45,557 nucleotides of DNA from a bacterium (GTDB lineage: Bacteria > Patescibacteriota > Minisyncoccia > Phycocordibacterales > CAIZLB01). The stretch is from assembly GCA_027490575.1 (NCBI GenBank), contig JAIXXV010000006.1, positions 1 through 45,557 on the forward strand. The letters run 5' to 3'. Of this stretch, positions 20,676 to 44,010 are shown one piece after another. Made by a program: the position numbers and the translations under genes. The stretch's first letter is position 1, and the number at the start of each line of letters is the position of its first letter. Under the pieces are notes generated by a model, which worked only from the letters and a program-made list of their open reading frames with translations, searched no databases and had not been told where the DNA came from.

Positions 20676-20765
20676 GGAGACGTGGGAGAGTGGTTTAATC
20701 TACCTCTTTGCTAAAGAGGCGTACCAGAAATGGTACCGAGGGTTCGAATCCCTCCGTCTCCGCCA
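20676..20765 (+). tRNA. tRNA-Ser (anticodon GCU)
   Basis: This class II cloverleaf has acceptor GGAGACG/CGTCTCC, anticodon stem CCTCT/AGAGG with loop TTGCTAA, a long variable arm (GTACC/GGTAC) and T arm GAGGG-TTCGAAT-CCCTC. It reads AGC/AGU. It is the only tRNA in the window whose gene encodes a complete CCA. TATATA just upstream could be its -10. It is followed directly by a hairpin array. Confidence 0.97.
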
Positions 20766-20961
20766 TGGCTGTGTAGGATATCTACGCAGTAGATATCTGA
20801 ACAGGCATCATGCGGGAGAATGTGTGGGATTGCAAACATCCCTGAATCAGCAGATTCACCTACTGGGTCCGTCTCCGCAAAACAAGGAACGCAGTGACTA
20901 TGTTTTGCGAGAGTGTAGTTTAAGGAGCTGATTTATCAGCGACTATAAACCCACCTCCGCA
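20766..20961 (+). repeat. Hairpin array A with tRNA 3'-end copies
   Basis: Two units follow the tRNA. The first has a perfect hairpin at 20777-20797 (GATATCTAC, GCA loop, GTAGATATC) and ends at 20867-20878 with GTCCGTCTCCGC, a copy of the local acceptor end. The second has the hairpin 20877-20908 (GCAAAACA/TGTTTTGC) with tip GA-AC-GCA-GT-GA, then a nested stem (GTTTA/TAAAC, GCTGA-TTTA-TCAGC), and ends CCTCCGCA at 20954-20961. Bases 20919-20965 are identical to 23160-23206. Confidence 0.85.
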
Positions 20962-21010
20962 TTGACAGTACGAGTCAGCTTTAGCTGGTAAGTGCTGGTA
21001 ACTTTTTTGT
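20962..21010 (+). terminator. Terminator-like hairpin closing array A
   Basis: The arms TTGACAGTAC/GTGCTGGTAA and CAGC-TTTA-GCTG fold around a GA-type internal loop and are followed by CTTTTTTG. It looks like an intrinsic terminator for a transcript that includes tRNA-Ser and array A. The same hairpin at 23015-23054 lacks the T run. Confidence 0.65.
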
Positions 21011-21124
21011 ATAAGGATCATATCTACCCTTCTTTTTTTATACTTATTTATTGCCATAATAAATTTGGTAAAATAGGAAATATAATCAAACAAAAGTTAT
21101 TAAGGTGATATACTTATTAATAAT

Positions 21125-21646
21125 ATGAAAAAAATATTTTTTATACTTAAAGTAGGAATCATTTCGGTTGTTCTATATTATCTGCTTCTCATTTTTATAA
21201 TCGGACCTTTTGTCATAAATGCTTTTTTATCACAAATTAATATAAATGAGACTGTTTTTACATATATTACCAGAGCAATATTTATATTGTTATTTGTAGC
21301 TGTTTGCACTGGGGTAGCATTTTTACTCAAAAAACAAACTTACGAAGTTGACTCTGTACACAGAGACAGTGACTTGCCTATCACACCTAAGCCATCTCCA
21401 GAAATAACTATGTGGGCTGTAGTTTTATCTATAGCCACGATTGTAGTTCCGCAATTACCCAGTGATGATTTGTCTCAAATGGTATATTTATTCACTCTAC
21501 CTTTATTAGTTATATGTTGGATAATTTTAAGCCTGCTTCGATTAAAATATAAAAACACCGCGAATGAGCACATCAGGACAGCAATGTATTTTCTGCTTAC
21601 AGCCTGGACTTTGATTATTTCTTTAATATACCAACAATTATTTTAA
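21125..21646 (+). CDS. Four-helix membrane protein, unknown
   Basis: The 173-aa protein has four hydrophobic segments (IFFILKVGIISVVLYYLLLI, YITRAIFILLFVAVCTGVAF, MWAVVLSIATIVVPQL, LFTLPLLVICWIILSLL plus a final YFLLTAWTLIISLIY). The loops carry no known motif. AAGGTGAT lies 15 bases upstream of the ATG, too far for a good Shine-Dalgarno. It is one of several small membrane genes located between the tRNA-linked arrays, which suggests accessory cargo. Confidence 0.7.
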   Translation: MKKIFFILKVGIISVVLYYLLLIFIIGPFVINAFLSQININETVFTYITRAIFILLFVAVCTGVAFLLKKQTYEVDSVHRDSDLPITPKPSPEITMWAVVLSIATIVVPQLPSDDLSQMVYLFTLPLLVICWIILSLLRLKYKNTANEHIRTAMYFLLTAWTLIISLIYQQLF

Positions 21647-21721
21647 TAAAACATTTTATAACTCCAATTATCTAAAGGCTCACCACGCTTTCCAACCCCA
21701 CCCCTTAAACTTAATTAACCC

Positions 21722-22204
21722 ATGGAAATAAAAGACAAAGAGTTGCATAGGATTGCTATCACTTGCATCATTTACAATGAAGCGCAAAAAGGTGACATAA
21801 AGTACTTACTAACAAAAAGAAGTCCTACAAAAAAAGTTCACCCTAACAGATGGACTGTTCCAGGAGGGGGTTTAAATGTTGATGACTATATAAACAAGCC
21901 AGTATCACACGGGGTTAATGGCTGGTATGGCTCAGTAGAAGATGCATTAATGCGAGAAGTAAAAGAAGAGGTTAATGTAGATATCGGTAAAGCCACTCAC
22001 CTGCTCAACCTAACTTTCATAAGACCTGATGGTGTCCCCGTTCTAGTGCTTAGCTATTTTGCTCCATATATTTCGGGAGAAGTAAAACTAGACGAAGATG
22101 CAGTTGAATATAGGTGGGTATCACTAGAGCAAGCCAAAGATATTGATTTAATAGACGGTATATATAGTGAATTAGAGATGGTGGATAAGTTGTTAAGCAA
22201 ATAA
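21722..22204 (+). CDS. Nudix hydrolase
   Basis: The 160-aa protein of the Nudix fold hydrolyses nucleoside diphosphate-linked compounds; its substrate cannot be told. It has HPNRWTVPGGGL before the box and the core helix ALMREVKEEVNVDI carrying the metal-binding REVxEE. About 18-20 residues (NVDDYINKPVSHGVNGWYG) are inserted between the GGG turn and the helix, and the first Glu of the consensus Gx5E is not aligned, so activity may differ from typical members. It lies between arrays A and B. Confidence 0.88.
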   Translation: MEIKDKELHRIAITCIIYNEAQKGDIKYLLTKRSPTKKVHPNRWTVPGGGLNVDDYINKPVSHGVNGWYGSVEDALMREVKEEVNVDIGKATHLLNLTFIRPDGVPVLVLSYFAPYISGEVKLDEDAVEYRWVSLEQAKDIDLIDGIYSELEMVDKLLSK

Positions 22205-22211
22205 TATATAT

Positions 22212-22219
22212 TGTATAAT
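22212..22219 (+). promoter_or_regulatory. Promoter of the DoxX-like gene
   Basis: TGTATAAT ends nine bases before the ATG at 22229, so the mRNA leader is at most a few bases. Confidence 0.5.
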
Positions 22220-22228
22220 TAACCCATC

Positions 22229-22627
22229 ATGAAAATAATAAACACGATAATAAAAATAATATTGAGCATAATACTAATCATGCCAGTATTTGGAGTTCTA
22301 GGAATATTCCCAGAACCAACAGCTGATATGTATAACAACATCGATGCTTATGCATTTATCAAAGTATTGATGGATAGTCAGTACATCATGATAATGATGT
22401 CAGTAGTATTTCTAATATCACTTGCCTGTCTATGGACAAAGAGAGTAGCACTTGCTTCCCTCTTGCTTCTACCAATTTCACTGAACATAGTAGGCTTCCA
22501 TGCTTTTATAGATGGAGGACTTCTTACAGGTGGAGCTGTTATGGGAAATGTTCTACTACTCATAAACATTTACCTACTATGGCAAAGTTGTGATCAGATC
22601 AAACCACTACTACAACCAAAAGCTTAG
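22229..22627 (+). CDS. DoxX-like small membrane protein
   Basis: The 132-aa protein has four membrane helices (IIKIILSIILIMPVFGVLGI, YIMIMMSVVFLISLACLW, VALASLLLLPISLNIVGFH, MGNVLLLINIYLLW). The pattern of an early Phe/Pro turn, LLPISLNIVGFHAFIDGG and a final helix ending YLLW resembles DoxX-type membrane proteins of unknown function. A TATAAT box directly before the start indicates a near-leaderless mRNA. Confidence 0.7.
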   Translation: MKIINTIIKIILSIILIMPVFGVLGIFPEPTADMYNNIDAYAFIKVLMDSQYIMIMMSVVFLISLACLWTKRVALASLLLLPISLNIVGFHAFIDGGLLTGGAVMGNVLLLINIYLLWQSCDQIKPLLQPKA

Positions 22628-22675
22628 TTTTCTGATTAATCTTATTTGGTAAATTAAAAGGTAAATTAAATAAAC

Positions 22676-22712
22676 TTCAAACCCTGCTCAGGCAACTCAG
22701 CAGGGTTTTGAA
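22676..22712 (+). terminator. Terminator-like hairpin after the DoxX-like gene
   Basis: TTCAAACCCTGCT pairs with AGCAGGGTTTTGAA with one bulged T. The trailing T run is short. It separates the DoxX-like gene from the tRNA-Ser(ACU) promoter, which overlaps its end. Confidence 0.6.
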
Positions 22713-22735
22713 ATTACCGACTTTTAATGTAGTAT
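22708..22735 (+). promoter_or_regulatory. Promoter of tRNA-Ser(ACU)
   Basis: TTGAAA (22708-22713) and TAGTAT (22730-22735) are 16 bp apart. The start would fall two or three bases before the mature tRNA 5' end at 22745. Confidence 0.55.
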
Positions 22736-22744
22736 ACCCGTATT

Positions 22745-22831
22745 GGAGAGATGGATGAGTGGCTTAAATCAACAGTTTACTAAACTGTCGACCCTTAATT
22801 GGGTCCGAGGGTTCGAATCCCTCTCTCTCCG
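22745..22831 (+). tRNA. tRNA-Ser with anticodon ACU
   Basis: A well-formed class II cloverleaf: acceptor GGAGAGA/TCTCTCC, D stem GAT/ATC with GG in the loop, anticodon stem ACAGT/ACTGT, variable arm GACCC/GGGTC, and T arm GAGGG-TTCGAAT-CCCTC. The anticodon loop is TTACTAA, giving A34-C35-U36. It shares its scaffold with the GCU tRNA-Ser 2 kb away, but the anticodon stem and variable arm differ by paired changes, as in a maintained gene rather than a decaying one. The gene is followed by CA, one C short of CCA. Bacteria normally read AGU with GCU, so this anticodon is unexpected. Confidence 0.85.
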
Positions 22832-22833
22832 CA

Positions 22834-23206
22834 TTAACAATATGAGCCAGCTTTAGCTGGTGAATATTGTTAACTAGTGGATATAGTAGGAAGCGTAGCT
22901 TCTGGGGATTCGAAAAGGTTCTTCCATATTTTCGAGAATTGAGCGTAGCGAAATTTAAGAAAATGGAAAACCTGTACTGATCCTGTAAGGATCGAATCCC
23001 TCTCTCTCTCCGCATTGACAGTACGAGCCAGCTTTAGCTGGTGAGTGCTGGCAACTTTAAGGTAGTGGGATCGTACCCATCCCTCTCTCTCCGCAGATTA
23101 ATGAGCGCAGCGAATATAATCTGCGAGAGTGTAGTTGAATCAGAAGATTCAACTACTGGTTTAAGGAGCTGATTTATCAGCGACTATAAACCCACCTCCG
23201 CATTGA
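22834..23206 (+). repeat. Hairpin array B with tRNA 3'-end copies
   Basis: Three units follow tRNA-Ser(ACU). B1 starts with a 10+5 bp hairpin (22834-22873), then a GAAGC-GTA-GCTTC hairpin, then a unit opened by GGGATTCGA (22905-22913) and closed by TCGAATCCC (22992-23000), ending with a 23-base T-arm/acceptor copy at 22992-23014. B2 is the hairpin 23015-23054, ending with CCCTCTCTCTCCGCA at 23081-23095. B3 is hairpin 23093-23124 (tip GA-GC-GCA-GC-GA), a perfect hairpin TAGTTGAATC-AGAA-GATTCAACTA, then a block identical to array A, ending at 23202. Confidence 0.85.
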
Positions 23207-23301
23207 GGCCTTAGTACCGGTATGGCCAGAGTATTTAAGATTGTAGAGAGACCAGATTACTCTTGCTACACAAACATTTAAAATTAAGTTAAAATTAACT
23301 T

Positions 23302-23598
23302 ATGCAAAAATACTCAAGATTCTCACTTTATAGTTTTATCATTCTCGCATCATCCTTTCTTTTGTTGTTTGTAAATCGAAGCGTCGTGAACTTGTCTATG
23401 TCTCCTACATACTCTGATATCTTCGGATATGCCATATTACCGATAGTCTCTCTCATACTTGCAGTAACATCTCTAAGAAAATCCAATTCAAAATCTATAA
23501 ATATTTTACTAATCATTCTTTCCATATTGCCAGTGCTTCTTTTTGTAGCAATTGCTCTTCTGGGCCATTGCGGATTCTATACAGGAAAGTGCAGATAG
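23302..23598 (+). CDS. Small three-helix membrane protein, unknown
   Basis: The 98-aa protein has hydrophobic segments SFIILASSFLLLFV, IFGYAILPIVSLILAVTSL and ILLIILSILPVLLFVAIALL, with a Cys-containing tail (HCGFYTGKCR). No family is recognised. An inverted repeat (TAAGTTAA-AA-TTAACTTA) sits directly in front of the ATG and could be an operator or affect initiation. It lies between arrays B and C. Confidence 0.65.
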   Translation: MQKYSRFSLYSFIILASSFLLLFVNRSVVNLSMSPTYSDIFGYAILPIVSLILAVTSLRKSNSKSINILLIILSILPVLLFVAIALLGHCGFYTGKCR

Positions 23599-23702
23599 TG
23601 AGAAGCTGACCACGACCCATATACTCGTTTCAATCCCTGAAATGGTACCAAAATATATCTACAAGGTCTCACCGCTCTAATACCTAACCCACCATGCCTG
23701 CG

Positions 23703-23902
23703 TAAAGATATTTTCACAAAGTGAAAATATTCCCGCCCGGTACGAGAAAGCGGCCGATGGAGATTCTATAGTTGATTCGAAAAGCTTTACCTTATTTTGA
23801 AGACCTGTGGTCTAATAAAATGGTAAAGGTATACTCAAGACATAAGCTTCGAATCCCTTTCTGTAGGGACCGAATCGTTCATCTTACAACATAAGATGAT
23901 TA
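23703..23902 (+). repeat. Degenerate hairpin cluster C
   Basis: Several stems follow one another: ATATTTTCAC/GTGAAAATAT; an outer GATTCGAA (23774-23781) pairing with TTCGAATC (23848-23855) around CTTTACC.../...GGTAAAG and AGACC-TGT-GGTCT; and CATCTTA/TAAGATG. The plan GATTCGAA-hairpin-TTCGAATCCC repeats that of unit B1 with different inner sequences, so this is probably an older member of the same family. No functional tRNA is seen here. Confidence 0.65.
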
Positions 23903-23917
23903 ATTATTTACATTCAC

Positions 23918-24367
23918 TCACTTTAGTTTGCTCTGACAACCCGTCTTTGCACTAGAGCTTAATAGAAGTTCACATGATTCAAAATCATTATTTTCTATCG
24001 CAAAGGAATAAACACATTTATCAAATTTATTCGGATCAGAAATTAATTTACAAAATGAAACTTTTTTCTTTTGCAAAGCGAAAATACTAATACAATCAGA
24101 GGTATAATCTACCCCCCTATGTCCCACTGTTTCTGCTGACTTAAATTTCAAGCACTCTGAAACATCTTGATTTGTGTCAATTAATTTTTGAGTTTGTTTT
24201 TTCATAACACTAGGGTCTTGAATAACTATATATCCCTGAATTGTATATATTTCCTCAAGAATATATGACTTAATTCCAAGATAAACAAATATATAAAGTA
24301 TTGGAAGCGAAAGGTAAACAAGAAAAGAAACAGCTAATATAGTAAAAAGTTTTATTATAATTTTCAT
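23918..24367 (-). CDS. Membrane-anchored Cys-repeat protein
   Basis: The protein has 149 aa from the ATG at 24367 (MKIIIKLFTILAVSF); the frame extends upstream but would run into the repeat D region. One N-terminal membrane helix is followed by an exported domain with regularly spaced Cys in units such as SDCISIFALQKKKVSFCKLI and DKCVYSFAIENNDFESCELL, the C-x3-A-x(n)-D-x3-C repeat seen in many uncharacterised CPR and archaeal surface proteins. Neighbouring cysteines probably form disulfides. Function is unknown. Confidence 0.7.
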   Translation of the reverse strand: MKIIIKLFTILAVSFLVYLSLPILYIFVYLGIKSYILEEIYTIQGYIVIQDPSVMKKQTQKLIDTNQDVSECLKFKSAETVGHRGVDYTSDCISIFALQKKKVSFCKLISDPNKFDKCVYSFAIENNDFESCELLLSSSAKTGCQSKLK

Positions 24368-24430
24368 TGATAACATAATATCACGCTTAACATAATGTGT
24401 AATATATAGGAACCATGTTATGGTAAGGGT

Positions 24431-24469
24431 GTACTGACCATGTAATGGTCGAATCCCTATCTCTCCGCA
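24431..24469 (+). repeat. tRNA-Ser 3'-end remnant with T-arm-like hairpin (D)
   Basis: GTACTGACCA-TGTAA-TGGTC leads into TCGAATCCCTATCTCTCCGC. The same plan occurs at 22974-23014, where the hairpin arms are GATCC/GGATC instead of GACCA/TGGTC with the TGTAA loop unchanged. The tail copies the T-loop 3' part and acceptor of tRNA-Ser. It could be an attachment-site remnant at the right end of the accessory region. Confidence 0.75.
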
Positions 24470-24503
24470 TTTAACACACTCAGTCTCAACCACCACCCAT
24501 CCA

Positions 24504-43351: not shown

Positions 43352-43809
43352 GGGGATGCTAGGTATCGACATGTATGTACTCTGTTTGGTGCGCAATCGA
43401 GTATTCTAAAACCTCGTAAAACTTATAGAAAACATAAGTGCTAAAGCACAAAAAGCAGTCGTTTCTCCGTTCTTCGCAGTAAACGATTTTGCATTCGCGA
43501 CGGCTCGAGCCTAACACTGCTTCATTGCAGTGTGCTCGCCACACGACATCTCACTTCTCTTTGTTCGCTAGAGGATCTGGGGTGATATACCCGCGAAATA
43601 GGTTGATGAGTTTCTTCACTCACCCTCCGAAACCTTAGAAGATCGACTCTTTGATGTTTTGTTTATTTTTAAATCATTGAGTTCAAAGTCTGTACAGCTT
43701 ATGGATAAGATTAAGATCTCCACCGGCCTAGACAGCAAAAAACAAACTACATTGCGTAGACTCCACTCAGAACCATACTTGCACGCGGGTTCGATTCCCG
43801 CCATCTCCA
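43352..43809 (+). ncRNA. ssrA: tmRNA (transfer-messenger RNA)
   Basis: tmRNA frees stalled ribosomes and tags the nascent chain. The 5' GGGGATG pairs with 3' CATCTCC to form the acceptor; the T arm GCGGG-TTCGATT-CCCGC precedes it, and the length of about 458 nt is usual. The tag frame appears to run from GCT at 43440 to TAA at 43512-43514, starting AKAQKAVVSPFF and ending NDFAFATARA, and the stop is followed by the hairpin CACTGC/GCAGTG. Other frames stop early or give a charged tail. The gene ends ACA, lacking a full CCA, and continues directly into array E. Confidence 0.93.
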
Positions 43810-44010
43810 CAAAAACAACGAGCGAACATGGTGAGCGACTATGTTTTTGTAGGATGCCCGAGTGAATACGAGGGCGCCACATTAAACCTAAGGAACGAAG
43901 TGACTATAATTTTGTAGGATGCCACTGAAAGCGGCGCCACAATCTTATTAAGCGAACATGGTGAGCGACTATGTTTTTGTAGGATGCCCGAACGAAAGTG
44001 AGGGCGCCAC
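43809..44010 (+). repeat. Hairpin array E behind tmRNA
   Basis: Three units of 60-71 bp each end GGCGCCAC (43873, 43933, 44003). Unit 1 begins with a 9-bp stem ACAAAAACA/TGTTTTTGT (43809-43817 with 43842-43850) whose tip is GA-GC-GA-AC-ATG-GT-GA-GC-GA. Unit 2 has tip GA-AC-GAA-GT-GA (43893-43903). Units 1 and 3 share 41 identical bases (43821-43861 and 43951-43991). Each unit also contains TGTAGGATGCC and a second hairpin, such as CCC-GA-AC-GAAA-GT-GA-GGG in unit 3. Confidence 0.85.

Follow-up and report, generated by a model that had tools for sequence, protein, structure and literature searches.

Hairpin units behind tRNA genes of Phycocordibacterales look like very small mobile DNA

Directly behind two tRNA-Ser genes of a bacterium placed in the order Phycocordibacterales (phylum Patescibacteriota), stem-loops alternate with copies of the tRNA 3' end, which raises the question of what these arrays are and how they came to lie there. 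The window, meaning the whole stretch of DNA that was analysed, comprises 45,557 nucleotides of contig JAIXXV010000006.1 (assembly GCA_027490575.1) and belongs to a genome of 772 kb in 42 contigs, here called G000. Its positions 20766-24469 hold two tRNA-Ser arrays with ordinary genes interleaved. An earlier note on this DNA had described a family of tRNA-linked hairpins with tandem-GA tips. The analysis given below arrives at a longer unit with a different build. Such units have the look of mobile DNA of a very small, so far unrecognised kind, sitting in tRNA genes and leaving the tRNA unbroken.

At an occupied locus the order is tRNA, T, hairpin 1, T', core, T and flank, where T stands for nucleotides 57-74 of the tRNA concerned and T' for its reverse complement. 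T' is interrupted by hairpin 2 at the boundary between acceptor and T stem, and its complementarity extends to nucleotides past the discriminator; hairpin 1 often resembles an intrinsic terminator. The predicted fold and covariation make the core a three-way junction. In core A, the long arm P2 opens with AAAAGG(TT) and closes with (AA)CCT, followed by unpaired GTACTG and by P3, whose loop is GTA in 66 of 69 aligned core A matches; the unpaired strings GAAAA and GTACTG are near-invariant. Units measure 74-350 nt, mostly 105-190, and contain no genes. Within the 350 nt read downstream of its tRNAs, G000 has a common core A element behind Lys, Val(GAC), Leu(GAG), Tyr, Arg(GCG), Arg(CCT) and Ser(ACT), and seven core A copies of this genome were used to build a covariance model, R1. 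Compared with shuffled sequences, three fuller G000 copies outside the window fold with z scores of -7.9, -6.8 and -5.1, and the window copy at 22877-23013 folds less strongly (z -3.5), with none of 200 shuffles equalling it. The parts of the two arrays are as follows.

20676-20765, plus strand: tRNA-Ser(GCT) (ARAGORN, Rfam RF00005), with its T segment (nt 57-74) at 20746-20763.
20766-20878, plus strand: unit 1 behind tRNA-Ser(GCT), decayed, with a terminal 12-nt T copy at 20867-20878.
20879-20960, plus strand: unit 2 behind tRNA-Ser(GCT) (repeat family D6), with a GA-AC-GCA-GT-GA tip hairpin, T' at 20907-20915, a TTTA-loop core hairpin and a short T at 20952-20960.
20961-21002, plus strand: third unit behind tRNA-Ser(GCT) (repeat family D1), of which hairpin 1 (TTTA loop) remains and the remainder is lost.
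22745-22832, plus strand: tRNA-Ser(ACT) (ARAGORN, Rfam RF00005), with T at 22815-22832.
22833-22876, plus strand: hairpin 1 of unit 1 behind tRNA-Ser(ACT), with a TTTA loop and tandem GA.
22877-22912, plus strand: T' of the same unit, with the T-stem complement GGGGATTCG at 22904-22912 and hairpin 2 intervening.
Within 22889-22903, plus strand: hairpin 2 of the same unit, GGAAGC-GTA-GCTTCT, interrupting T'.
22913-22993, plus strand: core A of the same unit, with the P2 long arm and its GA-GC-GTA-GC-GA tip, GTACTG, and P3 with a GTA triloop (about 22979-22993).
22994-23013, plus strand: T copy of the same unit, with a CT expansion within it.
23014-23094, plus strand: unit 2 behind tRNA-Ser(ACT), without a core, with hairpin 1, a T' remnant in 23062-23077 and a T copy at 23078-23094.
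23095-23201, plus strand: unit 3 behind tRNA-Ser(ACT), with a GA-GC-GCA-GC-GA tip hairpin, T' at 23123-23131, two core hairpins and a short T at 23193-23201.
23769-23866, plus strand: decayed core A (model R1, 30 bits, E 2.6e-05), with a partial T copy at 23851.
24411-24468, plus strand: 3' half of a core A unit, with P3 and a T copy at 24451-24468, 1.6 kb downstream of the tRNA.

The tRNA-Ser genes, the 3'-end copies and the stem-loops reported earlier are all in place, the six copies with the boundaries given in these lines. The hairpins that had been taken for the units are parts of them: the TTTA hairpins are partly hairpin 1, the GNA tips are arm ends, and the real unit is the frame of T, hairpin, T', core and T. 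Unit 1 behind tRNA-Ser(ACT) spans 22833-23013 as a whole, and R1 matches its core A at 22902-23011 with 116 bits. Unit 3 of the same array and the units behind tRNA-Ser(GCT) have a different, small core instead of core A, and the junction in unit 2 where T' is followed by T (23062-23094) looks, from its sequence, like a scar of core loss. A stretch of 48 nt made up of unit core and T copy is 100% identical between two different tRNA-Ser loci (20918-20965 and 23159-23206), which suggests recent transfer or conversion between the arrays.

The tandem-GA tip did not prove to be a defining motif. When searched as GA, 2-6 bp, a 3-4-nt loop and GA, it occurs 6 times in 20676-23260 against 1.8 expected; 500 first-order shuffles gave as many as 7, so that in DNA this rich in AT the count is near chance, and elsewhere in the window there are 29 + 42 instances. 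The case draws its force from the copies of tRNA ends, the long pairing and the recurrence of the units rather than from this motif.

Recurrence was followed with R1. Core A matches turned up in 28 of 41 relatives, the richest of which has 30, and in 92 of the 197 genomes searched within the order. In a phylum sample under strict filters, R1 matched 9 of the 17 genomes from this order and none of the 363 others. Linkage to tRNA genes, the other part of the earlier proposal, was borne out: for 58 of the 69 aligned R1 matches, a tRNA or tmRNA was detected on the same strand within the 330 nt that precede the match, and several of the others are second units or lie behind a tRNA tail without an ARAGORN call. 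The tmRNA of genome G027 likewise bears a unit (L110). The window has a tmRNA at 43352-43812, with an Rfam match and no ARAGORN call. An exact-pattern search of a named genome collection, with a pattern that was too strict, gave only 4 matches, two of them in genomes named Parcubacteria group bacterium and Candidatus Nomurabacteria bacterium. Occupancy is patchy, and most tRNAs of G000 have no unit (4 of 32 have an exact T copy). In a sample of 153 tRNAs, enriched for occupied loci, a T copy of at least 13/18 lies within 430 nt downstream of 73 and an exact one behind 39, and these copies span most tRNA types; among 50 control tRNAs from 12 genomes of other orders there were no exact copies and three near copies. 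Rfam, at gathering and loose thresholds, returned the tRNA and tmRNA and otherwise chance matches, with no family for the units, and no description of them was met in the open-licence papers searched.

The two portions of a unit follow different rules. Sequence in T and T' tracks the tRNA type, and T' matches 16.3 of 19 positions of its own tRNA, compared with 11.8 for other tRNAs. Core sequence tracks the genome: core identity is 0.53 within and 0.47 between genomes, and 53 of 69 copies have their nearest core in their own genome (shuffled mean 16, maximum 30). The same cores are common to different tRNAs of one genome, each with its tRNA-specific T and T'. Since cores are alike by genome and ends by tRNA, cores move or are homogenised between tRNAs of one genome, with the ends fitted to each. 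Tandem duplicates of units occur at loci L112 and L094, and in one genome the distal T copy is often shortened to about 8 nt. At loci L088 and L089 of genome G035, two different tRNAs have a common sequence past the end of P3 (CATCCGTCCGCCATCAATCTATCC) that replaces the full T copy.

Comparison of loci among congeners indicates that the units are inserted. The gene order clpC, tRNA-Tyr, rpmG is kept across the genus; the tRNA-Tyr locus of G000 has a 178-nt unit with a T copy, and in G001-G009, as far as the loci were read, there is no unit and rpmG comes next. Similarly, tRNA-Arg(CCT) has a unit in G000 and none in G001-G004. Like integrative elements at tRNA sites, the units are bordered on either side by the tRNA 3' end as a direct repeat, and relatives have unoccupied sites. 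The flank starting with CA stands after the far T in 13 units and at the near T in 6, and CCA is retained at the far copy alone at L179, as would be expected if a unit enters between C74 and C75 and the former tail ends up on its far side.

Whether the units act as DNA or as RNA was approached through their pairing. An absence of covariation had been set beforehand as what would overturn the earlier proposal; 92.6% of cells in the alignment are paired, and double-change cells, in numbers inflated by kinship of the copies, amount to 458 against 125 in shuffled alignments, with slid controls far below. All four Watson-Crick pairs occur at the same positions of P3. Taken with the frame and the R1 matches behind tRNAs, this upholds the view of modular, structurally constrained, tRNA-linked units. 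The kind of change is informative: G.T and A.C cells stand at 47:36 in both element alignments and at 79:8 in the acceptor and T stems of tRNAs from the same genomes (p 4e-7), and G.T makes up 1.0% of cells in P3 versus 4.2% in tRNAs. With DNA parameters the sense strand out-folds its complement in 104 of 117 cases, and the G.A pairs and GNA loops can fold on the sense strand only. The low G.T share and the sense-strand folding indirectly favour folded single-stranded DNA of the tRNA-sense strand over RNA as the acting form.

The main rival explanation is a functional RNA that would be transcribed together with the tRNA and take part in its 3' processing or quality control; T' would pair with the tail or the downstream copy and so act as a switch, or as a decoy resembling a tRNA. 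A conserved three-way junction with strong covariation is what such an RNA would have, the sense strand is also the better folder under RNA parameters, and hairpin 2, placed exactly at the acceptor/T-stem junction, would give a tRNA-like acceptor-T helix. The paired positions, however, lack the G-U tolerance seen in tRNA stems of the same genomes, the unit often lies downstream of a terminator-like hairpin, and its occurrence is patchy among congeners and most tRNAs of G000. Moreover, the distal copy shortened to about 8 nt in one genome and the lack of a match to any known RNA family in Rfam count against this explanation, which is regarded as unlikely. A tRNA-like structure as the main function was rejected, given that T' complements nucleotides past the discriminator, that distal copies are often truncated and that the tRNA gene makes the better partner. 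Among the three functions offered by the earlier note, single-stranded DNA (ssDNA) mobile elements fit the data, while RNA processing elements and small RNAs cut from the precursor are disfavoured by the terminator-like hairpin, the missing G-U tolerance and the patchy occupancy.

The units are probably small non-autonomous insertion elements at tRNA 3' ends, acting as folded sense-strand DNA and keeping the tRNA whole through a T on both sides. The 3' end of a tRNA (or tmRNA) gene would serve as the insertion site; entry would take place after C74, with T flanking both sides leaving the tRNA intact and the old 3' end, sometimes with the encoded CA of CCA, staying at the far side. The sense strand would fold as ssDNA through P1 (T' with T), P2 and P3, T' might pair with the target T as the guides of IS608 pair with cleavage sites, and a recombinase acting in trans could cut and join. 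Copies in an array would decay with distance from the tRNA, and template switching between T and T' could refit T' upon a move to another tRNA. The fuller version, in which the folded ssDNA core and an antisense guide T' of about 18 nt direct insertion behind C74 and the guide is remade for each tRNA, letting one core family colonise all tRNA genes harmlessly, is offered tentatively and is rather doubtful as a whole.

Several points weigh against insertion by such elements. No transposase, recombinase or autonomous copy is tied to the units. The Y1 transposase (PF01797) was found in 18 of 28 genomes with elements and 4 of 13 without, it is absent from the element-rich G000, G007, G017 and G023 (8-20 copies each), and 20 Y1 loci gave no significant R1 match (best E 0.1). 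Nearly all genomes have a single Xer-like recombinase, which is as common in those free of elements; it is also the sole candidate present in all four Y1-free rich genomes checked, which is weak evidence for a helper role. No excised form and no active movement were seen, the proposal does not explain how a core gains a new T' at another tRNA, a T duplicated by a staggered cut is indistinguishable from a T borne by the element, and several of the metagenome-assembled genomes are fragmented. The low G.U could also reflect strong selection for RNA stability. The reverse transcriptase PF00078 is absent from the element-rich G000, G017, G023, G027, G033, G035 and G038. Y1 transposase, reverse transcriptase and tyrosine recombinase were each rejected as necessary partners, none of them discriminating element-bearing genomes.

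Replication slippage, quasi-palindrome template switching and gene conversion at tRNA loci could make units, and keep them similar, with no dedicated mobility. T, hairpin and T' form a long inverted repeat of the type perfected by template switching, tandem duplicates exist, and the missing G-U bias fits correction at the DNA level. Nevertheless, the conserved core with GAAAA, GTACTG and the GTA loop, the cores common to different tRNAs and the clean presence or absence at two loci all need a transfer of sequence, which leaves this origin improbable.

Less credible still is an integron-like cassette system with folded single-stranded sites, in which the tRNA tail would be the attachment site and the genes in 23302-24496 the cassettes. 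Sense-strand folding and site arrays behind a single tRNA would suit it, as would the T copy 1.6 kb off with two open reading frames in between. These two reading frames, however, belong to no recognisable family, and the window array alone has a gene-bearing distal copy: 10 of 11 multi-copy arrays are short and non-coding, and none of their copies lies more than about 460 nt from the tRNA. The G000 recombinase scores 109.9 bits, far under the cut-off of 265 for TIGR02249; with the broad XerA/integron model NF040815 its score is 221.8 and the cut-off 220. A plain gene-cassette array was rejected, the other arrays being gene-free. Remnants of casposon-type (Cas1) staggered-cut transposition, with T as an 18-nt target duplication, would account for a fixed-length direct repeat at the tRNA end, the tRNA body standing where a leader would be, but they leave T' without explanation and the units are gene-free, so that this origin is scarcely plausible.

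The frame described here is found with other cores as well. The three near copies from other orders all show the frame of T, hairpin, T', core and T, with different cores. One of them has core B (GNCGGAG ... CGAGNCGGGGTCG ... GTGACC), which also occurs within the order and in which an A-T pair is replaced by C-G, a compensatory change, across the tandem GA. Judged by these few loci, the frame extends beyond core A and is probably class-wide. Core B or short cores stand in the same frame behind tRNAs at L264 and L272 (other orders) and at L236, L238, L098, L090 and L284. Among viral contigs, the exact core A search gave no match and there was one match to core B, an array at L292 (IMGVR_UViG_3300033463_005745). 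It adjoins genes that look chromosomal by eye (serine acetyltransferase, UDP-glucose epimerase, cytidine deaminase), and this contig, filed as viral, is probably a bacterial fragment. Additionally, two tRNA-Glu loci of G000 (L007 2724-2796 and L027) are each followed by a repeat of another kind, flanked on either side by GCACAGATTT, which may represent a further type of element.

Bacteria of the Candidate Phyla Radiation, with their small genomes, are generally considered poor in mobile elements. If the proposed explanation is true, an abundant mobile family has been overlooked by annotation for being non-coding and lying within tRNA spacers. The match of T' to its tRNA poses the question of how an element gains an antisense copy of its target, and if T' is a guide, the units would add a new case to the DNA insertions that are guided by nucleic acid. 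Since covariance models recognise the core families, the question is open to test now in complete genomes and cultured members.

Some known systems share features with these units. The repeats downstream of E. coli tyrT (rtT) hold part of the tRNA 3' end; as an analogy only, they too lie behind a tRNA, whereas the units occur behind many tRNAs and in many genomes, with T' and a conserved core, and have no Rfam match. The attC sites of integrons are folded single-stranded recombination sites that likewise form arrays; the units, in contrast, have no regular gene cassettes and no integrase at the level of TIGR02249, and their site is the tRNA tail. REP elements are mobilised by TnpA-REP (RAYT) (PMC8266576) and resemble the units as short palindromic non-coding DNA with many copies per genome, thought to be non-autonomous, but the units lie behind tRNAs, with tRNA-matched T' and T and a three-way core, and several rich genomes have no Y1 gene. 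In IS608 (IS200/IS605 family), guide sequences within the element base-pair with the target or cleavage site (PMC5934647). The likeness is at most a folded single strand and a base-paired guide, the latter conjectural for the units; the target of IS608 is a tetranucleotide, and here it is a tRNA tail of about 18 nt with copies on both sides and no linked transposase. Elements that integrate into tRNA genes by tyrosine recombinases, such as tycheposons, also insert at the tRNA 3' end and keep the tRNA whole through a direct repeat, but the units are gene-free (no integrase), mostly 105-190 bp long, and carry a tRNA-matched antisense copy and the same core at all kinds of tRNA.

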